64,000 bases of DNA from Kutzneria sp. 744. Lineage in GTDB: Bacteria; Actinomycetota; Actinomycetes; Mycobacteriales; Pseudonocardiaceae. Positions within the stretch are counted from its first letter, which is position 1; each line of letters starts with the position of its first letter. Below the pieces are notes generated by a model. It was not told the origin of the DNA, did not search any database, and worked only from the letters and a program-made list of their open reading frames with translations. The stretch covers positions 6,928,975-6,992,974 of the forward strand of contig NZ_KK037166.1 in the NCBI RefSeq assembly GCF_000568255.1, written 5' to 3'. Made by a program: the position numbers and the translations under genes. Of the stretch, positions 27,968 to 48,123 are shown piece after piece.

Positions 27968-29460
27968 GTGTCAACACTCACCGACCTGCTGGCCGAGCAC
28001 ACCGGCCTGCCCGGCGCCGCGGTCGACCACCTCCAGATGGTGGCGGCCGAGTGGCAGTTGCTGTCGGACCTGTCCTTCGCCGACTTCGTGCTCTGGGTCC
28101 CGCTGGACGACGACGAGCCGGCCGGCAAGTTCCTGTGCGCCGCGCAGGCCAGGCCGACGACCGGGCCGACGGCCCACCCCGACGACATGGTGGGCAGCAC
28201 GGTCACCGCGGACGACCATCCGCAGGTGCGCCGAGCCCTGGTCGAGGGCCGGATCTGCCGCGAGGAGGACCCGCGCTGGCACCTGGGCGTGCCGGTGCGC
28301 CGCGAGACGATCCCGGTGCGCTTCAACGGCGACACGATCGCGGTGCTGTCCCGGGACACCAACCTGGCGGTGCCGCGGGTGCCGAGCCCGCTGGAGATCG
28401 CCTACCTGGGCAGCGCCGCCGACCTGTGCCAGATGATCTCGGACGGCACGTTCCCGGCCATCGAGCCGTCGGCCCGACGTGCACACGAGCCCCCGCGTGG
28501 GTGACGGCCTGATCCGCATCGACAGCTCGGGCGCGGTGGTGTTCGCCAGCCCCAACGCGCTGTCGGCGTATCACCGCATGGGTCATGCGGCCGATCTTGT
28601 CGGCGTGCACCCTGGCCCCGCTGACCAGGTCGCTCGTGGCGGATCCGTTCGACGCGACGGAGGTGGCGCAGCGGATCCGGACCGCGCTGGACGGCAACCC
28701 GAGCATGCGCATCGAGGCGGAGTCCCGGCGCGGCGCGGCGGTGCTGTTCCGTGCGCTGCCGCTGCGGCCATTGGGCAAGGCCGCGGGCGCATTGGTGCTG
28801 GTCCGCGACGTCACGGAGGTGAAGCGCCGGGACCGGGCACTGTTGTCCAAGGACGCCACGATCCGCGAGATCCACCACCGCGTGAAGAACAATCTCCAGA
28901 CAGTGGCGGCGCTGCTGCGGCTGCAGGCCCGGCGGACTAACAATGCCGAGGCCCGGGACGTGCTCCAGGAATCGGTGCGCCGGGTGACCTCGATCGCCCT
29001 CGTGCACGAGACGCTGTCCATGTCGGTGGATGAGCGGGCCAATCTGGACGACGTGCTGGACCAGGTGTTCCCGATGCTCTCGGACGTGGCGACGGCGGAG
29101 ACCGGCGTCAACGTGCGCAAGGAGGGCAAGCTCGGCGTGGTGTCGGCCGAATTGGCGACGCCGCTGGTCATGGTGCTCACCGAGCTCGTGCAGAACGCCC
29201 TTGAGCACGCCTATCCGGCTGGTGATTCGGGCGAGGTCGTGGTGCGTGCGGAACGCTCGGCCAAGTATCTGGACGTGGTGGTGTCCGACGAGGGCCGCGG
29301 CCTGCCGCCGGGCTTCTCGCTGGAGCGCACCGAGCGCCTGGGCCTGCAGATCGTGCGCACGCTGGTGGAGTCCGAGCTGCGCGGCTCGCTGTCGCTGCGG
29401 CGGCGGGACCCGCGCGGGACCGAAGCGATCCTGCGGGTTCCCCTCCGCCGTAGTCGATAG
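27968..29460 (+). pseudogene. pdtaS: Sensor histidine kinase PdtaS, broken by two frameshifts in this sequence
   Basis: Together the pieces encode a normal-length (about 495 aa) PdtaS: GAF-like domain (STLTDLLAEHTGLPGAAVDH), PAS domain, and HisKA_2/HATPase with the phospho-acceptor His in IREIHHRVKNNLQTVAALL. Frame 1 stops at 28504. The correct continuation (TSPRVGDGLIRIDSSGAVVF) begins after one extra C near 28473-28475 (GGCCCGACG). A second extra base near 28608 (GGCGTGCACC) moves it to the third frame, which runs cleanly to 29460. Known partners respond through the antiterminator PdtaR. All domains are otherwise well conserved, so sequencing error is more likely than decay. Confidence 0.85.
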
Positions 29461-33529: not shown

Positions 33530-33907
33530 TCAGTGGTTCTGGGTGAGGAAGGCGATGCCGTTGCGGTCGCAGCCGACCTGGGGGGCGTTGTGGGAATCGG
33601 TGTCGGACTCGCAGGTCCAGCCGTTGACGACGAGGCGGCGGGCCGTGCCCTGGGCCTTGCGCGGGGCGTCGCGGTAGTAGGAGCTGAGCACGGAGATGGC
33701 CTCGGGGCAGGCGGCGGTGCCGGCGGGAAAGGCAGGGGAGATGAGGGAGCGCTTGCCGGCGGGGCCGCTCACGGGGCCGCAGTCGACCGGTGGCGTGTAG
33801 CCGGAGTCGGCGGGCGGCTGGGCGTGGGTGGGGCCGGCGCCGCAGGCAGTGAGCAGGGCAAGGCCGAGCAGTGTCACGACAAGCCGGGCCGGCAGCCAAC
33901 GCCCCAT
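33530..33907 (-). CDS. Small lipoprotein, unknown function
   Basis: 125 aa from ATG 33907; a start 20 codons further upstream is also open. The signal peptide ends in the lipobox LLTAC (about Cys22). The mature part has four further Cys residues (VDCGP, AACPE, WTCESD, VGCDR), suggesting two disulfides. It starts 57 bp after the ammonia-lyase homologue stop on the same strand and might be co-transcribed. Confidence 0.7.
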   Translation of the reverse strand: MGRWLPARLVVTLLGLALLTACGAGPTHAQPPADSGYTPPVDCGPVSGPAGKRSLISPAFPAGTAACPEAISVLSSYYRDAPRKAQGTARRLVVNGWTCESDTDSHNAPQVGCDRNGIAFLTQNH

Positions 33908-33963: not shown

Positions 33964-35382
33964 TCACTCGTCGGCGAATTTGGCCCGCAGGCGTGCGATG
34001 TCGGGCCCGAGGGGGCGGTCGACCAGGACGGGGGGAACGGTCTCGGCGATCCAGGCGTAGGCGCCGCGCAGGCGGGGAGCGCCGGGCAGGCCGCGGAGGT
34101 GGTGCGCCTGGGCGATGCCGATGAGCTCGCAGGCGGTGATCGACAACAGGTGGTCGGTCACCTGCCGGAGCTGCTCGCCGGCGGCCCAGGCGTGCGCCTG
34201 CACGTCCTCCTGGCCGGCGGAGGTGTCGAGGGAGCCGAGCGTGGCCGGGGCGGCCAGCCGGCGGATCTCGTGCAGCTCGCCGGCGGCCCGTTTGTGGATG
34301 GGCGACAGGCCGGCCTGGGGGCCGGGATCGACGGCGAGCTGGGCGTTCAGGCCGGTGAACTGCGTGTCCATGAAGCGGTGCAGCCGCTGCACGCTGATCT
34401 CGGCGAGATGGGTCAGCGCGGCGGTGACGGCGTCGAGGCGCAGGCCGATGGTGACGGCGTGGTAGCCGGCGGTGGAGGTGAAGCGCCCATCCAGGAAGGA
34501 GGGGGAATCCGTCGGCGCGGCAAGGAGAAGGCCCCGCGCGGCGGTCAGGTCGTCGAGGGTGCGCTGCGCGTGGGCGATGGCCTGCGGGGCGACGCGGAAC
34601 GACACCGGCGCCTGCACGAGATCGGAGCGGGTGGCGGAATCCGTTGTGCGGGAACGGATGTCATCGAGGACGGCGGCGAGCACGGTGTCGGGGCCGGCCA
34701 GCGCGGGGTGGTAGATCGAGCGGGGCGCACCGAGCACGTCGATGGCCATGGCGGCGGCGAGGGTCTGGAGTTCCAGCGCCTGGGCGGCGTCGGCGCCGCG
34801 CATGTAGGCGTGCGCCAGGGCCAGCGGGGAACCCTGGATCAGGCTCGCGCCTTCCTTGGGGCCCAAGGCAAACGGCTTCGCCTTGCGGCGCTTCAACGCC
34901 TCGGCGGCCGGCTTCTCGACGCCGTCCTCCAGGACCGTGCCGATGCCCACGAAGGTCTGGAAGGCATGGGACAGCGGGATGATCTCGCCGGCGCTGCCCA
35001 GCGCGGAGCGTGGCACGGCCGGCACGAAGTTGTCGTTCAGGCGGTCGGCCAGGAACTTGACGAGCTCGGGGCCGGCGGCGGTGGTGGGCGCGAGCAGGCC
35101 TTGGAGCTTCACCGCCAGCAGGGCACGGACATCCGGCTCGGGCAGCCACGGCGGTCCGCCGACGGCCCGCCCGATGAGCAGATTCCGTTGGTGCGCGGCC
35201 TGTTGCTCGGCGTCGAGGGCGACGCCGGCCAGCCGGCCCATGCCGGTGTTGACGCCGTACACGGGCTTGTCGGCCGCCTCCAGCGCCGCCAGCATGGCCC
35301 GCCGGTTGGCGGCGACGTCGTCCAGCGGGCCCAGTTCGACCCGCTGTCCCCTGGCCACGGCCAGGATGTCCAGGTCCCTCAC
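33964..35382 (-). CDS. Aromatic ammonia-lyase homologue lacking the MIO-forming serine
   Basis: 472 aa, GTG start overlapping the previous gene by 4 bp. It keeps much of the HAL/PAL fold: the Tyr loop VYGVNTGMGRLAG, QRNLLIGRAVGG, IPLSHAF, an Arg in APVSFRVAP, and TSAGQEDVQAH. The MIO-forming Ala-Ser-Gly triad aligns with Ser-Ala-Gly in SALGSAGEIIPLSH. The central residue that becomes dehydroalanine is therefore Ala, and the canonical cofactor cannot form. QDxYSxR is also degenerate. It may be a non-lyase, a different chemistry, or a partner protein. The genuine HutH is elsewhere in the window. Confidence 0.82.
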   Translation of the reverse strand: MRDLDILAVARGQRVELGPLDDVAANRRAMLAALEAADKPVYGVNTGMGRLAGVALDAEQQAAHQRNLLIGRAVGGPPWLPEPDVRALLAVKLQGLLAPTTAAGPELVKFLADRLNDNFVPAVPRSALGSAGEIIPLSHAFQTFVGIGTVLEDGVEKPAAEALKRRKAKPFALGPKEGASLIQGSPLALAHAYMRGADAAQALELQTLAAAMAIDVLGAPRSIYHPALAGPDTVLAAVLDDIRSRTTDSATRSDLVQAPVSFRVAPQAIAHAQRTLDDLTAARGLLLAAPTDSPSFLDGRFTSTAGYHAVTIGLRLDAVTAALTHLAEISVQRLHRFMDTQFTGLNAQLAVDPGPQAGLSPIHKRAAGELHEIRRLAAPATLGSLDTSAGQEDVQAHAWAAGEQLRQVTDHLLSITACELIGIAQAHHLRGLPGAPRLRGAYAWIAETVPPVLVDRPLGPDIARLRAKFADE

Positions 35383-36386
35383 CGGTACGGCAGCATCGTG
35401 CCGACGTCGTTCGCCTCGGCCCGGTGCAGGATCATGTTCGCCACCGCGAGGTCCGTTGTGGACAGTCCGCGATGCCAGAACAGGGTGCGTTCCTTGTCGT
35501 TCTCGCGGCCGGGCCGGTGGCCGGCCACGATCTGGCCGATCTCGGCGTGAATGCGGTCCTCGGTCAGCAGGCCCGCGTTCAGGTGCGGCCGCAGCGCGCC
35601 GAACCTGGGGTTGCCCGACTGCGATTCCCGCCAGTTGTCCACGACGATCTTGTCCACGTCGTCGAGCAGGTCAAGGGCCAGCGCGCTGATCGTCCCGTAC
35701 GGCACGAGGAAGCTCCCCGGCCGGAGGAACTCCTTGCGCAGCAACGGCTCCGGCTCGTTCAGCCGGGACGCCTCGACCAGCACGTCGGCCCCGTCGAGCG
35801 TCTCTTCCCAGGTCGTGGCCACCGTGACCGGCTTGCCCAGATGCTCGCTCAGCCGTTCGGCGAACGGCTCCCGGGACTCCGGCCGGCGGCTGGTCACCCG
35901 GATCTCGTCGAAGTCGAAGACCGAGTCCAGCAGCACCACGTTCCACCAGGCCGTGCCGCGGGCTCCCACGTGCCCCAGCACCTTGGCGTCGGCGCGGGCC
36001 AGGTACTTCGCCCCCACCGCGGTCATCGCCCCGGTCCGCGCCTCGGTGATCATCGTGCCGTCCACGATCGCCTTGGGCATGCCCGTCTCCGGGTCGAACA
36101 GGCTGATCAGCGCCATCTCGCTGGGCAGGCCCCGCTCGTAGTTGGCGACGAAGTCGCCCACCACCTTCACCCCGGCGACGCCCTTGTCGGTCAGGCTGCC
36201 CCGGAGCACGTTGAAATGCCCCCGGCCGCCGTTGTCCGGCACCAGGTGGGTCCGTGGCTCGAACACCACGCGGTCGTTGCCGTGGTCGGCCAGCACGTCC
36301 TCCACCGCCGCCACGATCTCGGCATCCGTGATGCCCAGCGAGTCGATGTCGGCGCCGGACAGGTAGCGCATCCAGACCGTTGTCAC
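35379..36386 (-). CDS. Ornithine cyclodeaminase / mu-crystallin family protein
   Basis: 335 aa from GTG 36386; ATG 36371 before RYLSGADIDSLG is an alternative. The family pattern is visible: an N-terminal substrate domain with GVAGVKVVGDF and FDPETGMPKAIVDGTMITEARTGA, then a Rossmann domain LGHVGARGTAWWNVVLLDSV. Such proteins act on amino- or imino-acids with NAD(P); the substrate is open. Some databases name close relatives a tyramine oxidase subunit. It is coupled (4-bp overlap) to the MIO-less lyase homologue, implying a joint task. Confidence 0.84.
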   Translation of the reverse strand: MTTVWMRYLSGADIDSLGITDAEIVAAVEDVLADHGNDRVVFEPRTHLVPDNGGRGHFNVLRGSLTDKGVAGVKVVGDFVANYERGLPSEMALISLFDPETGMPKAIVDGTMITEARTGAMTAVGAKYLARADAKVLGHVGARGTAWWNVVLLDSVFDFDEIRVTSRRPESREPFAERLSEHLGKPVTVATTWEETLDGADVLVEASRLNEPEPLLRKEFLRPGSFLVPYGTISALALDLLDDVDKIVVDNWRESQSGNPRFGALRPHLNAGLLTEDRIHAEIGQIVAGHRPGRENDKERTLFWHRGLSTTDLAVANMILHRAEANDVGTMLPYR

Positions 36387-36395
36387 AGGGCCAGC

Positions 36396-36761
36396 CTAGA
36401 TCGTCTGCCCCGTCCAGGCCGTGCCGTTCCAGTACCGCTGCATCCCCGACGCGTCCGGGTACCAGCCGGCTGGCGGCGTCGCGTTCATGACGTTGACCTG
36501 CACCGATGGCGCCACGGCCAGCGCCATCTGGTCGGCCGAGCAGGCCATCACCAGCGCGATGATCCAGCCGACGAACGTCCAGCCCAGCAGCAGGTTGATC
36601 ACCGCGACCGACGCCGTGTTGGACTTGCGTCCGCTCGCCGCGATCGCCCACGGCAGCATGTAGCCGACCGTCAGCACCGTCACCACCCAGGCGAACACCA
36701 CGTGCCCGTCCGAGACGGCCGGCGGCTGGACTGCGGCCCGATAGGGCATCTGATACGTCAT
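36396..36761 (-). CDS. Superinfection-immunity-type membrane protein with DUF2510 tail
   Basis: 121 aa from ATG 36761. Two membrane helices (about 20-40 and 52-75) are arranged as in the Imm_superinfect family (VVTVLTVGYMLPWAIAA, LLLGWTFVGWIIAL). The C-terminus, PPAGWYPDASGMQRYWNGTA, is a DUF2510 Trp-rich motif common on actinobacterial membrane proteins. It ends 9 bp before the cyclodeaminase-family gene, so it is probably the first gene of that operon. Phage exclusion is only suggested by the domain name. Confidence 0.78.
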   Translation of the reverse strand: MTYQMPYRAAVQPPAVSDGHVVFAWVVTVLTVGYMLPWAIAASGRKSNTASVAVINLLLGWTFVGWIIALVMACSADQMALAVAPSVQVNVMNATPPAGWYPDASGMQRYWNGTAWTGQTI

Positions 36762-38603: not shown

Positions 38604-39796
38604 ATGAGGGACGCCGTGACTGCTGTGAACGAATCCGCCACCGAACTGACCGACACCGAGATATTCGCCGCCCATGAGGGAGGCAAGCTGGGCACCGCCG
38701 TGACGGCCCCGCTGGCCGACCCCAAGGCGCTCTCGATCGCCTACACGCCCGGAGTGGCGCGCGTCAGTCGTGCCATCGCCGAGGACCCCTCCCTGGCCGC
38801 GAAGTACACCTGGGCGCACCGCCTGGTCGCGGTCGTGAGCGACGGGACCGCGGTGCTCGGCCTCGGCGACATCGGTCCGAGCGCGTCGCTGCCCGTGATG
38901 GAGGGTAAGTCCGCGCTGTTCAAGAAGTTCGGCGGCCTTGACTCCATCCCGCTGGTGCTGAGCACCACCGACGTCGACGAGATCGTGGAGACGCTGGTCC
39001 GCCTGCGCCCGTCGTTCGGCGCGGTGAACCTGGAGGACATCTCCGCCCCGCGCTGCTTCGAGCTGGAGGCGAAGCTGATCGAGGCGCTGGACTGCCCGGT
39101 CATGCACGACGACCAGCACGGCACCGCGATCGTGGTGCTGGCCGCGCTGCGCGGCGCCACCACGGTGCTGAGGCGCGACTTCGCCGACCTGCGGGTGGTC
39201 GTGGCCGGCGCCGGCGCGTCCGGCGTGGCCTGCGCGAACATCCTGATGGCCGGCGGCGTGGGCGAGGTGACGATGCTCGACTCGCGCGGCATCGTGCACA
39301 CCGACCGGGACGACCTGAACCCGATCAAGCGGGAGCTGGCCGGCCGCACCAACGCCTCGGGCCTGCGCGGTGGCGTCGCCGAGGCGCTCAAGGGCGCGGA
39401 CATGTTCCTCGGCCTGTCCGGCTCGACGGGTGGCGGAGGGACCTGATCGCGACCATGGCCCCGCAGGGCATCGTGTTCGCGCTGTCCAATCCGGACCCGG
39501 AGATCCACCCGGTCGTCGCCGCCCGGCACGCCGCGGTGGTGGCCACCGGCCGCAGCGACTTCCCCAACCAGATCAACAACGTGCTGGCGTTCCCGGGCGT
39601 GTTCCGCGGCGCGCTGGACGCGGGGGCCCGCCGGATCACCGAGAACATGAAGCTGGCCGCGGCCGACGCGATCTTCCAGGTCGCCACGGACGAGCTGGCG
39701 GTGGACCGCATCGTGCCCAGCGCCCTGGACCCGCGGGTGTCCGTCGAGGTCGCGCGGGCCGTCGCCGCGGCCGCTGCGGCGGATGGAGTAGCGTAG
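38604..39796 (+). pseudogene. NAD-dependent malic enzyme, frameshifted in this sequence
   Basis: Short-form malic enzyme (about 395 aa) that oxidatively decarboxylates malate to pyruvate. The first part (to 39428) has YTPGVARVSRAI, VLGLGDIG, the metal-site MHDDQHGTA and the NAD loop VVAGAGASGVACANI. It then stops at 39446. The rest (ATMAPQGIVFALSNPDPEIH onward) is in another frame, ending at 39796. The join around 39428-39442 (ACGGGTGGCGGAGGGACC) is G-rich: one extra G and two missing bases would give the expected STVAEGDLIATM. Both parts are fully conserved in type, so an artefact is likely. Confidence 0.88.
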
Positions 39797-44759: not shown

Positions 44760-45884
44760 GTGATCGAGTTCCAGGCCGTGACCAAGCGGTTCGATGACGG
44801 CACCGTCGCCGTCGACGAACTGAACCTGACCGTGGATCCAGGACGGATCACGGTGTTCGTCGGACCATCGGGCTGCGGGAAGACGACCTCCCTGCGCATG
44901 ATCAACCGGATGATCGACGCCACCTCGGGCGCCATCCTGGTCGACGGAAAAGACGTGCGCCAGTCGGACCCGCCGCTGCTGCGGCGGGGCATCGGCTACG
45001 TGATCCAGCAGGCTGGGCTGTTCCCGCACCGCACGGTGCTGGACAACGTCGCCACCGTGCCGGTGCTGGCCGGCTGGAGCCGGGCCAAGGCCCGCAAGCG
45101 GGCCGCGGAGCTGCTGGAGACGGTGGGCCTGCCGGCCACCATGGCCGGCCGCTACCCGGCTCAGCTGTCCGGCGGCCAGCAGCAGCGCGTCGGCGTGGCC
45201 CGCGCGCTGGCGGTCGACCCGCCGGTGCTGCTGATGGACGAGCCGTTCAGCGCGGTCGACCCGGTGGTCCGCGAGGACCTCCAGAACGAGCTGCTGCGGC
45301 TGCAGGGCGAGCTGGACAAGACGATCGTCTTCGTCACGCACGACATCGACGAGGCCATCAAGCTGGGCGACAAGGTCGCGGTGTTCCGCACCGGCGGCAT
45401 CCTGGCCCAGTACGACAAGCCCTCGGAGCTGCTGGCCCGCCCGGCCGACGACTTCGTGAGCAACTTCGTCGGGCGCGACCGCGGCTACCGGGCGCTGGGC
45501 TTCCTCACCGCGTCCGGGTTGACGGTCGGCGAGATCGCCAGCGTGCAGCTCGGCGACACGGCCGGCGACGCGCGGCGGAAGCTGAGCGACGGCTGGATTG
45601 TCGTCGTCGACGAGCGCCGGCACCCGTGCGGCTGGCTGTCGGCCGACCGTCTGTCCGGTGTGGACGAGAACGCCACCGTCGACGCGGATCTGGTGATGTC
45701 GGGCGGATCCCTGTACGACACCGAGCACGGCTCACTGCGCAGCGCCCTCGACTCGGCCCTGAGTTCCCCGTCCGCACACGGCGTCGCCGTCAACGGCGGC
45801 GGCGAGCTCGTCGGCTCGATCACGGCCGACGAGGTGCTCCGGGCGCTGGCCGCCGCGCGCACCTCCGGCGAGGTCCCGCAATGA
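44760..45884 (+). CDS. opuCA: Glycine betaine/carnitine/choline ABC transporter ATPase
   Basis: 374 aa from GTG 44760. ABC ATPase of the OpuCA/ProV type: Walker A GPSGCGKTT, the Q-loop GYVIQQAGLFPH, signature LSGGQQQRVG, Walker B VLLMDEPFSAVD, and switch His in FVTHDIDEA. A C-terminal tandem CBS-like region (about 255-365) is the ionic-strength sensor in this family. First gene of a four-gene operon with 1-4 bp overlaps or short gaps. Confidence 0.93.
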   Translation: MIEFQAVTKRFDDGTVAVDELNLTVDPGRITVFVGPSGCGKTTSLRMINRMIDATSGAILVDGKDVRQSDPPLLRRGIGYVIQQAGLFPHRTVLDNVATVPVLAGWSRAKARKRAAELLETVGLPATMAGRYPAQLSGGQQQRVGVARALAVDPPVLLMDEPFSAVDPVVREDLQNELLRLQGELDKTIVFVTHDIDEAIKLGDKVAVFRTGGILAQYDKPSELLARPADDFVSNFVGRDRGYRALGFLTASGLTVGEIASVQLGDTAGDARRKLSDGWIVVVDERRHPCGWLSADRLSGVDENATVDADLVMSGGSLYDTEHGSLRSALDSALSSPSAHGVAVNGGGELVGSITADEVLRALAAARTSGEVPQ

Positions 45885-46519
45885 CGTGGGTGTTCGACCA
45901 CCTGGGGTTGCTCGGCGACCTCACGGTGACGCACGTCTACCTGTCGGTGCTGCCGGTGGTGATCGGCCTGATCATCGCGATCCCGCTGGGCTGGGCGGCC
46001 AGCCGCTGGCGGCCCGCGCGGGCGATTCTGCTGACGGTCAGCGGCCTGCTCTACACGATCCCGTCGCTGGCGTTGATCGTCATCCTGCCCGCGCTGATCA
46101 GCACCAAGACGCTCGACCCGGTCAACGTGATCATCACGCTGACCGTGTACACCATCGCGCTGCTGGTCCGGTCCATCGCCGACGCGCTGTCGTCGGTGCC
46201 GCCGACCATCGTCGCGGCGGCCACGGCCATCGGCTACCGGCCGCTCAAGCGCTTCGTGGGCGTCGAGTTCCCGCTGGCCATCCCGGTCGTCGTGGCCGGC
46301 CTGCGGGTGGCCATGGTGTCCAACATCAGCCTGGTCAGCGTGGGCGCGCTGATCGGCATCGCGGGCTACGGGCAGCTGTTCACCAACGGCTTCCAGCTCC
46401 AGTTCGTCACCGAGATCGTCACCGGCATCGTCGCGACGCTGGTGCTGGCCCTGATCGCGGACCTGGTGCTGCAGCTGATCGGGCGGCTCGTGACGCCCTG
46501 GACCAGGGTGGGGAGGTAG
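45881..46519 (+). CDS. opuCB: Osmoprotectant ABC transporter permease (first)
   Basis: 212 aa, ATGA overlap with the ATPase gene. Five to six membrane helices and the EAA-like loop AATAIGYRPLKRFVGVEFPLAIP that contacts the ATPase. Typical OpuCB length. It forms the channel with the second permease. Confidence 0.91.
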   Translation: MTWVFDHLGLLGDLTVTHVYLSVLPVVIGLIIAIPLGWAASRWRPARAILLTVSGLLYTIPSLALIVILPALISTKTLDPVNVIITLTVYTIALLVRSIADALSSVPPTIVAAATAIGYRPLKRFVGVEFPLAIPVVVAGLRVAMVSNISLVSVGALIGIAGYGQLFTNGFQLQFVTEIVTGIVATLVLALIADLVLQLIGRLVTPWTRVGR

Positions 46520-46522
46520 GCC

Positions 46523-47203
46523 GTGAACCTGTTGACGAGCTGGCTGTTCGACCCCGCCAACTGGAGCGGCTCGACCGGCGTGCCGGCACGGCTGGTGGAG
46601 CACCTCTGGTACACCGCGCTGGCCCTGGTCATCGCCGTCGTGATCGGCTTCCCGCTGGGCGCGATGGTCGGGCACACCAAGCGCGGCGGCTTCGTGCTGG
46701 TCGGCGCGGCCAACGTGCTGCGGGCGCTGCCCACCGTCGGCGTGCTGACGCTGGTGGTGCTGCTGGCCGGCATCGGCCTGATCCCGCCGATCGCCGCGCT
46801 GACCCTGCTGGCCATCCCGCCGATCATGGCCGGTGCCTACGCCGGCATCGGCGCCGTCGAGCCGGTCGTGGTCGACGCGGCCCGCGGCGTGGGCATGACC
46901 GAGCGGGAGATCCTGTTCCAGGTCGAGATCCCCAACGCGATGCCGCTGATCTTCGGCGGCGTGCGCAGCGCCGCCCTGCAGGTGGTGGCCACCGCGACCA
47001 TCGCCGCCTACGTGGGACTCGGCGGTTTCGGACGGTACGTGTTCGACGGCCTGGCGCTGCACGACTATCCCCAGATGGCGGGCGGCGCGATCCTGGTCGC
47101 CGTGCTCGCGGTGCTGGTCGAGCTGGTGCTCACCGGCGTGCAACGGCTGGTTGTCTCACCCGGGTTGCGCCCGGTGAGGACGAGTGGAGGAATCCAGAGA
47201 TGA
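46523..47203 (+). CDS. opuCD: Osmoprotectant ABC transporter permease (second)
   Basis: 226 aa from GTG 46523, 3 bp after the first permease. Same fold, with the coupling loop DAARGVGMTEREILFQVEIPN. An N-terminal stretch (LLTSWLFDPANWSG) precedes the helices. It overlaps the binding-protein start by 4 bp. Confidence 0.91.
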   Translation: MNLLTSWLFDPANWSGSTGVPARLVEHLWYTALALVIAVVIGFPLGAMVGHTKRGGFVLVGAANVLRALPTVGVLTLVVLLAGIGLIPPIAALTLLAIPPIMAGAYAGIGAVEPVVVDAARGVGMTEREILFQVEIPNAMPLIFGGVRSAALQVVATATIAAYVGLGGFGRYVFDGLALHDYPQMAGGAILVAVLAVLVELVLTGVQRLVVSPGLRPVRTSGGIQR

Positions 47204-48123
47204 AGCGAACCGTAGCCGGCCTGGTCACCGTCCTGGTGGCGGCGCTGGGCCTGACCGCGTGCGGTGGGGGCGGCGGTGGCGACCCGCTCGCCGGCGGCAA
47301 CAGCGGCTCCCAGTCCCCGTCGGACACGATCACCGTCGGGTCGGCCAACTTCCCGGAGAGCCAGCTGCTCGCCGAGATCTACGCCGCCGCGCTGACCAAG
47401 GCCGGCGTGAAGGTCAGCAAGAAGCTGAACATCGGCAGCCGGGAGACCTACATCCCGGCGCTCAAGGACGGCTCCATCGACCTGATCCCGGAGTACAGCG
47501 GCGTGCTGCTGCAGTACTTCGACAAGAGCGCCACCGCCACCAGCGCCGAGGACGTGTACACGGCGCTGGGCAAGGCGCTGCCCAGCGGTCTGTCCGTGTT
47601 GGACAAGTCGGCGGCCGAGGACAAGGACGCCATCGTCGTCACCAAGGAGACGGCCGACAAGTACAACGCGAAGTCGCTGTCCGACCTCGCGCCGCACTGC
47701 GGCGACCTGATCCTCGGCTCCGCGCCGGAGTTCCAGAAGCGCCCCGACGGCGTCCCGGGCCTGCAGAAGACCTACAACTGCACGTTCAAGGACTTCAAGT
47801 CGCTGGACGCCGACGGCCCGCTGACCGTGGCCGCCCTGACCCAGGGCACCATCCAGGCCGCCGACATGTTCACCACCGACAGCACCATCGAGAAGAACGG
47901 CTGGGTCGTGCTGGAGGACCCGAAGTTCAACTTCGCCGCGCAGAACGTACTGCCGCTGATCAACACCAGCAAGGCCAGCGACACGGTGAAGAAGACGCTC
48001 AACGCCATCGCCACCAAGCTCGACACGAAGACGCTGACCGAGCTGAACACCAAGCTCGGTGCCCCCGACAAGCCCGACGCCTCCAAGATCGCCACCGACT
48101 GGCTGGCCAGCGCCGGCCTGTAA
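47200..48123 (+). CDS. opuCC: Osmoprotectant-binding lipoprotein
   Basis: 307 aa from ATG 47200. The lipobox is GLTAC (about Cys21), then a glycine-rich linker. The OpuAC/OpuCC-type binding domain follows: ITVGSANFPESQLLAEIYA, NIGSRETYIPALKDGSIDL, and PEYSGVLLQYF. The ligand is probably glycine betaine, carnitine or choline. Last gene of the operon; a strong palindrome follows 12 bp later. Confidence 0.92.
   Translation: MKRTVAGLVTVLVAALGLTACGGGGGGDPLAGGNSGSQSPSDTITVGSANFPESQLLAEIYAAALTKAGVKVSKKLNIGSRETYIPALKDGSIDLIPEYSGVLLQYFDKSATATSAEDVYTALGKALPSGLSVLDKSAAEDKDAIVVTKETADKYNAKSLSDLAPHCGDLILGSAPEFQKRPDGVPGLQKTYNCTFKDFKSLDADGPLTVAALTQGTIQAADMFTTDSTIEKNGWVVLEDPKFNFAAQNVLPLINTSKASDTVKKTLNAIATKLDTKTLTELNTKLGAPDKPDASKIATDWLASAGL

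Follow-up and report, generated by a model that had tools for sequence, protein, structure and literature searches.

Can a protein with the fold of histidine ammonia-lyase (HAL) go on eliminating amines once the serine that becomes its 4-methylidene-imidazole-5-one (MIO) cofactor is gone, and what would an adjoining protein of the ornithine cyclodeaminase (OCD) family contribute? This question is raised by a locus in a 64,000-nucleotide stretch of DNA (hereafter, the window) from Kutzneria sp. 744, whose 11.6 Mb genome consists of a single contig. A preliminary description of the window had reported three tightly packed minus-strand genes, and our analysis confirmed that genes for an Imm_superinfect/DUF2510 protein, an OCD-family protein, and a lyase homologue follow one another in open frames, with a gap of 9 bp and then an overlap of 4 bp (GTGA) between the OCD and lyase reading frames (Table 1). 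It had also read the lyase triad as Ser-Ala-Gly and the QDxYSxR block as altered, both of which we found to be so (S130-A131-G132; VQAPVSFR). Taking the sequence, neighbourhood, and phylogenetic analyses together, we see an even chance that this HAL-fold protein is catalytically active and eliminates an amine from an imported betaine without MIO, in the manner of ergothionase.

Profile comparison assigned the lyase to PF00221 (E = 1.5e-83; 281.5 bits against a cut-off of 27.3; residues 5 to 444 of 472), which excludes a chance match, and its score against the HutH equivalog TIGR01225 (245.8 bits) lies far below the cut-off of 539.15. At a threshold of 1e-40, 127 genomes in a sample of 150 from the family contained a match. 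Orthologues with 55-100% identity occurred in 13 of the 150, the own genome included, and all other listed matches showed only 29-37% identity, giving a clean split between the two groups. A scan of named genomes returned 125 relatives, of which the best 80 were retained as loci; among these, the nearest are Kutzneria proteins with 93 and 89% identity, and the remainder come from Amycolatopsis, Kribbella, Actinoplanes, Streptomyces, Nocardioides, Arthrobacter, Catenulispora, and others, as well as from one Rubrobacter and one Chloroflexi metagenome-assembled genome (MAG).

Selection analysis of four Kutzneria copies yielded ratios of nonsynonymous to synonymous substitution (dN/dS) of 0.09-0.18 across six pairs. 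A fifth copy (G057) was excluded from this calculation because of a frame break near residue 437; the alignment behind the profile search and the named-genome scan does include its out-of-frame tail. Because orthologues are present in 13 of the 150 family genomes, dN/dS is low, and 80 loci were retained of 125, the lyase is a conserved family under purifying selection and not a decayed gene.

To compare residues, we assembled 82 members of the clade of the window lyase (clade X: the 80 loci, the window copy, and a distant copy, L154), 11 ergothionase-like or unplaced plasmid and genome proteins (the E set, including the Klebsiella protein L142, which the tree places on the HAL side), eight proteins of a second MIO-less lyase type (E2), 21 HALs (including one Priestia protein without a triad), and two aminomutases. 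HAL positions are given by the HAL residue numbers Tyr53, His83, Asn195, Arg283, Asn313, and Glu414. The triad loop of the window lyase, counted between residues 119 and 137, has 19 residues against 20 in canonical HAL. The shorter length is shared by 81/82 clade X, 10/11 E, and 8/8 E2 proteins, whereas 20/21 HALs and both aminomutases have the longer one.

Gap placement decides whether the MIO serine counts as deleted or as exchanged for Ala, and the window protein has no Ser there either way; a simple interchange of Ser and Ala as the defining change is weakened by the loop being one residue short. A Ser-to-Ala change at the MIO serine abolishes both the MIO and the phenylalanine ammonia-lyase activity of RxPAL (PMC3903478), and a like variant of PbPAL lost hydroamination activity (PMC12535398). 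In the ungapped reading, 66 of the 80 loci have Ala and 14 have Ser at the centre of the triad, the Ala members spanning Kutzneria, Kribbella, Actinoplanes, Streptomyces, a Rubrobacter, and a Chloroflexi MAG. This distribution, together with the purifying selection among Kutzneria copies, rules out the decaying lyase that the preliminary description had envisaged in case only this copy differed from its close homologues.

Outside the triad, the equivalents of Tyr53, Arg283, and Glu414 (Tyr42, Arg263, and Glu392 in the window) are kept in 82/82 clade X proteins. At His83, the ring-recognition His of HAL, Arg is present in 82/82 clade X proteins and His in 21/21 HALs; the E set is divided between Arg (7/11) and His (4/11), and all seven Arg proteins have the OCD in their stretch. 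The Asn195 position holds Gln183 in the window and, across the 82 members, Gln in 50, Ala in 19, Glu in 12, and Asn in one. The Asn313 position is Ser in 82/82 clade X proteins and Asn in 11/11 E proteins, and the Asp that follows the triad Gly is Glu throughout clade X and Asp in one further relative, L161. At the position of Lys364, Lys occurs in 81/82 clade X proteins, 9/11 E proteins, and chain 6s7j of ergothionase, and in none of the 21 HALs, 20 of which have Tyr. By count, the spacing from this Lys to the conserved Glu, 28 residues without a gap, is identical in the window lyase and 6s7j.

A phylogenetic tree built from 45 of the 74 proteins in the alignment, omitting the columns of the loop, recovered clade X as one group (support 100, starred). 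A branch with a support of 91, not starred and not decisive, separated clade X, the E set without L142, and E2 (33 rows) from 12 HAL, aminomutase, and triad-deleted rows. The preliminary description had concluded that the known chemistry of the fold cannot be retained; this is too strong, because ergothionase, which shares the short loop, the Lys, and the Glu with the clade, represents a known MIO-free chemistry on the same fold. Its lack of the MIO cofactor is stated in PMC13405746. Ergothionase is the best mechanistic model for the window lyase, which most plausibly works like it, but is not its nearest relative by score; clade X is probably a new branch of a little-known MIO-free enzyme group.

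The pairing with the OCD gene, whose conservation the preliminary description had proposed to check, held up across genomes. The OCD gene lies directly upstream of the lyase gene in 49/80 loci and anywhere in the stretch in 51/80; these neighbour counts were taken from tblastn because our own gene caller missed the lyase in 7/80 loci, and the 31 loci counted without an adjacent OCD include two (L093, L118) in which the contig starts too near the lyase. Among 396 genomes of the phylum that were not chosen by the lyase, searched at a threshold of 1e-70, the OCD occurred in 13, the lyase in 11, and both in nine, the own genome included. With the own genome excluded, eight shared genomes compare with 0.30 expected (hypergeometric p = 1.6e-12, kinship of genomes ignored). 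The two genes lie less than 4 kb apart in six of the nine genomes with both and on different contigs in three. Of the four genomes with the OCD only, G310 has an ergothionase-like lyase next to the OCD and G260 a distantly related X-like lyase in the same place. The OCD was not found within 1.5 kb of a canonical HAL (0/17 loci).

The preliminary description had suggested a two-protein enzyme as one possibility. Such coupling could indicate an obligate form of it in which OCD and lyase share an active site or a channel: the 4-bp overlap recurs in other genera, and co-occurrence is far above chance. However, six of the 13 lyase genomes in the family sample contain no such OCD at E ≤ 1e-60, among them G085, a single contig of 100% completeness, and on plasmids the OCD adjoins a different lyase type; an obligate two-protein enzyme is therefore very unlikely. 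Amycolatopsis, too, includes species without this OCD. The same tight gene coupling, combined with the loss of the MIO and several HAL active-site residues, might instead mark the lyase homologue as a pseudoenzyme, a structural or regulatory partner that might, for example, serve the OCD or the importer by scaffolding or by sensing a ligand. The lyase genomes without such an OCD speak against this as well, as do the invariant Tyr42, Arg263, and Glu392 and the newly acquired Lys364, and we consider a pseudoenzyme decidedly unlikely. The OCD, with its altered cofactor loop, most likely works as an enzyme in its own right within the lyase's pathway.

The OCD partner itself matched PF02423 (E = 2.9e-56; 191.2 bits against a cut-off of 24) in a scan run without its first six residues, and its best PDB relatives are pyrroline-2-carboxylate reductase (6t3e) and alanine dehydrogenase (1omo). 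Its dN/dS is 0.085-0.163 over ten pairs from five Kutzneria copies. In 48 proteins compared, the dinucleotide-binding loop reads GARGTA (46) or GSRGTA (2), so that the GxGxxA pattern is absent; at the same place, 6t3e has GAG and 1omo has GCG. The next strand ends in T-S-[KR]-R in 48/48, which by its sequence looks NADP-type, and the Arg, Lys, Arg, and Asp of the substrate-site columns are likewise kept in 48/48.

OCDs of the window type also occur on plasmids of Proteobacteria and of Streptomyces chartreusis, where the records are 56-60% identical to the window OCD (best 30 of 821 with a match). We read nine plasmid loci, two found through a lyase search (L131, L132) and seven picked by the OCD alone, and identified an ergothionase-like lyase in eight of the nine, including six of the seven picked by the OCD alone. 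In the Rhizobium locus L131, the lyase overlaps the OCD by 4 bp and has ergothionase as its best PDB match (E = 3.6e-81). A putative sulfate exporter of the YeiH kind is present in Polaromonas (L133) and in two near-identical Rhizobium loci (L132, L135). The clusters of the latter two also hold CoA-transferase, SDR, and MaoC genes, which fit an unsaturated acid as product; the Polaromonas locus has other binding proteins, not betaine-type ones. Similarity alone would assign genes of this kind the labels histidine ammonia-lyase and ornithine cyclodeaminase, which the plasmid copies indeed carry; both are probably wrong.

The neighbourhoods of clade X further point to import. An OpuAC-type (quaternary-amine) binding protein is encoded in 45/80 loci, and either the OCD or the binding protein in 73/80. 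Streptomyces sulfonofaciens (L110) and a Pseudonocardiaceae MAG (L068) each have consecutive genes for an ATPase, two permeases, the binding protein, the OCD, and the lyase, and the order OCD-lyase-importer is found in a Rubrobacter MAG (L090). The window also contains a betaine-type ATP-binding cassette (ABC) importer, whose best matches, at 46-64% identity, are importers that accompany the lyase in other genera; it is the genome's best match to the Streptomyces binding protein, the two halves matching in swapped order. We tentatively place it in the same pathway as the OCD-lyase pair. The specific link with the pair is only moderate, given the importer's seat beside the hut operon; in Sinorhizobium meliloti, HutXWV is an Opu-type importer.

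From the observed conservation, selection, residue signature, and OCD and importer association, we infer a reaction, a leaving group, a substrate class, and a role for the OCD. The substrate of the lyase would be an imported quaternary-ammonium amino acid (betaine), and elimination from it would need no MIO because the tertiary amine is already a good leaving group. The retained Tyr, Arg, and Glu, with the newly fixed Lys364, would carry out acid/base catalysis; the catalytic residues of ergothionase are reportedly named in the paper on that enzyme. The products would be an amine, probably trimethylamine, and an alpha,beta-unsaturated acid, and the OCD would act in the same pathway, at a step preceding or following the elimination. 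The presence of Arg72 where HAL has its ring-recognition His suggests a substrate with an anionic side chain (carboxylate, sulfinate, or sulfonate) and not a plain imidazole or phenyl. Candidate substrates are a dicarboxylic betaine or oxidised ergothioneine, the latter because of sulfur-related neighbours (the cysteine-dioxygenase-like protein described below and the putative sulfate exporter). For ergothioneine itself, Arg72 speaks against the same ring contact, and His occupies this position in 4/11 E proteins.

The active site differs from that of the ergothionase-like proteins too, because the Asn313 position is Ser and Glu133 replaces the Asp in all 82 clade X members. A MIO-free enzyme of this fold might therefore catalyse another reaction: it could hydrate an unsaturated acid or add to it, isomerise its substrate, or perform a shift like that of an aminomutase, and the OCD would then provide or use up the other substrate. 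Amine elimination is favoured instead by the quaternary-amine-type binding proteins in 45/80 loci and by the ergothionase-like lyases beside the same OCD on proteobacterial plasmids, and we regard another reaction as rather unlikely.

Several observations weigh against an MIO-free betaine lyase resembling ergothionase. By score, 6s7j ranks 13th of 37 in a sequence search and 14th of 39 in a profile search, behind MIO enzymes; the stem of clade X is long (1.01 changes per column), and in the tree the grouping of the clade with the E set is not starred. The Lys364 position lacks Lys in E2 (0/8), although E2 is MIO-less by its loop. The OCD and the binding protein occur together in only 23/80 loci, and 7/80 have neither. 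In two genomes with the OCD only (G177, G349), the surroundings of this gene up to 1.5 kb contain a binding protein and no lyase, and a Cupriavidus plasmid locus (L136) has no lyase within 9 kb of it. The Kutzneria importer lies 8 kb from the pair, beside the hut operon, which it could simply serve. Lastly, the 14 loci with Ser in mid-triad comprise 13 Amycolatopsis (SSG) and one Catenulispora (NSG), and in another sample three of ten relatives, the window excluded, also have Ser there (ASG, SSG, or TSG).

Because of these serines, MIO formation is possible in part of the family, and the clade might consist of MIO enzymes after all: the cofactor would form in the SSG, NSG, TSG, and ASG members, one of which reads exactly ASG, and the SAG copies would be variants. 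Mid-triad Ala across many genera argues against this reading, as do the short loop and the loss of Asn195, each in 81/82 proteins, and we judge it decidedly improbable. A missing mid-triad Ser is thus a trait of the window copy and of the larger part of the family but not of every member. The preliminary description had stated that the MIO serine is missing from the window copy, which holds; across the family, the triad itself varies.

Other neighbours of the lyase were surveyed in the same loci. Ten of the 80 (Actinoplanes and kin, Arthrobacter, Labedella, and Nocardioides) contain E2 with a cysteine-dioxygenase-like protein (PF05995) and an amidohydrolase-like protein (by eye; no Pfam match). 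E2 was rejected as a genome-level partner: it occurs in 11/13 lyase genomes but also in 56/150 family genomes, and because of the latter its link is weak outside these ten loci. A second MIO-less HAL homologue in the own genome (5662139-5663531; C1; L002, L004) is of the E2 type (IGTGDL) and lies beside a rhodanese-like gene; its frame is broken, and uninterrupted copies exist in four other Kutzneria. In many Amycolatopsis, a gene with an aminoacyl-tRNA-editing domain (PF04073; L049:6425-6982) overlaps the OCD or lyase gene by 4 bp and closes a recurring gene row.

Table 1. Positions of the genes and diagnostic codons in the window.
Feature	Position	Strand	Remarks
Imm_superinfect/DUF2510 protein	36396-36761	minus	121 aa; PF14373 and PF10708
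OCD/mu-crystallin family partner	35379-36386	minus	335 aa; PF02423; starts 9 bp after the superinfection gene
GARGTA codons (OCD)	35949..35966	minus	dinucleotide loop, changed from the GxGxxA of relatives
MIO-less lyase homologue (clade X)	33964-35382	minus	472 aa; PF00221
Arg72 codon	35167..35169	minus	HAL H83 position
S130-A131-G132 codons	34987..34995	minus	place of MIO triad, gapless reading; followed by Glu133
Lys364 codon	34291..34293	minus	Lys383 of chain 6s7j, counted from alignment
Glu392 codon	34207..34209	minus	HAL Glu414 equivalent; Glu411 of chain 6s7j
Betaine-type ABC importer	44760..48123	plus	ATPase, two permeases, OpuAC-type binding protein
Genuine hutH of same genome	49070-50605		Cys-Ser-Gly triad; QDAYSLR; about 14 kb from lyase homologue

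Within the window, the genes after hutH resemble the remainder of a hut cluster (named by eye). The superinfection-immunity gene, which the preliminary description had included in the system, was set aside, since it lies near the OCD-lyase pair in only one of four Kutzneria relatives. Just downstream of the lyase, a small lipoprotein-like gene (33530-33907) has counterparts with 69-84% identity in four Kutzneria relatives; a Pfam scan of it gave no match. A malic-enzyme-like gene (by eye; 38604-39796) occupies two frames, split at about 39446/39455. Its counterparts in three Kutzneria relatives (L035, L036, L038) are single open frames of 396-399 aa, so that the split could stem from an indel, either of the assembly or of the strain. 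A sensor-kinase-like gene (by eye; 27968-29460) is likewise divided (27968-28504 and 28585-29460) and forms one frame of 497 aa in four Kutzneria relatives. Because the malic-enzyme-like, sensor-kinase-like, and E2 genes are all split, there are hints of several frame breaks in the Kutzneria sp. 744 assembly.

Further lyase homologues were encountered on plasmids. Two proteins annotated as ammonia-lyase or hutH, from Klebsiella pneumoniae (L142:6001-7533) and Priestia megaterium (L130:5947-7485), lack the whole triad, their loops reading GSVGY---L and GSLGY---L; both have hutU nearby, one together with an ABC importer and the other together with hutI. They are possible histidine betaine lyases feeding the hut pathway. 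An ergothionase-like protein of Sinorhizobium meliloti pSymA (L127:5893-7533), with 6s7j as its best PDB match (E = 4.1e-89), is possibly exported, to judge by eye from a signal-peptide-like N-terminus.

A broader picture, possible but in our view doubtful, is that MIO-free HAL-fold lyases removing a tertiary amine from betaines with anionic side chains would form a widespread, unrecognised branch in Actinobacteria. They would be coupled to an OCD whose rebuilt cofactor loop goes with new chemistry on the lyase's substrate or product; this OCD would be a recurring core that has combined with an actinobacterial and a mainly proteobacterial clade of MIO-free lyases. The literature matches listed, with most subscription journals outside their scope, included no description of this lyase clade or gene pair. 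If the reading as a MIO-free betaine lyase is right, a set of lyases that degrade betaines exists in soil bacteria and in those associated with plants. This would bear on trimethylamine release, on the turnover of ergothioneine or other betaines, and on how amines can still be eliminated by a fold that has lost its defining cofactor. Annotators can test for such genes directly by their residues (short loop, Arg72, Lys364, and Glu133, with GARGTA in the partner), and the SSG and ASG members offer a natural series for what MIO formation needs.

Comparison with known systems places each component beside a described family. Like HutH and other MIO enzymes, the window lyase belongs to PF00221 and has the equivalents of Tyr53, Arg283, and Glu414; unlike them, it lacks Ala-Ser-Gly, has a loop one residue short, a replaced Asn195, and VQAPVSFR for QDxYSxR, and scores below the hutH cut-off. 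The window OCD shares PF02423 and the substrate-site Arg/Lys/Arg/Asp with the OCD/mu-crystallin family (6t3e; archaeal 1omo) but differs, with its group, in having GARGTA or GSRGTA for GxGxxA, and T-S-[KR]-R at the end of the next strand. The binding proteins near the lyase (PF04069, 45/80 loci) recall the EgtU/OpuAC-type quaternary-amine importers; NCBIfam calls them OsmF-like, but far below its cut-off, and specificity residues of EgtU are described in PMC9732360.

The closest mechanistic parallel is ergothionase (Treponema denticola, PDB 6s7j/6s7q; Burkholderia sp. HME13), which shares the HAL family with the window clade. It has no MIO, as stated in PMC13405746, has a short triad loop like that of the clade (SSIGEGDI in the T. 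denticola chain 6s7j), and keeps the HAL Tyr and Arg. Its Lys383 and Glu411 correspond, at equal spacing, to Lys364 and Glu392 of the window lyase, and ergothionase-like relatives adjoin betaine-type importers on some plasmids. The window clade differs from ergothionase at three positions: the ring-recognition His is Arg, the Asp that follows the triad Gly is Glu, and the Asn at the position of HAL Asn313 is Ser.

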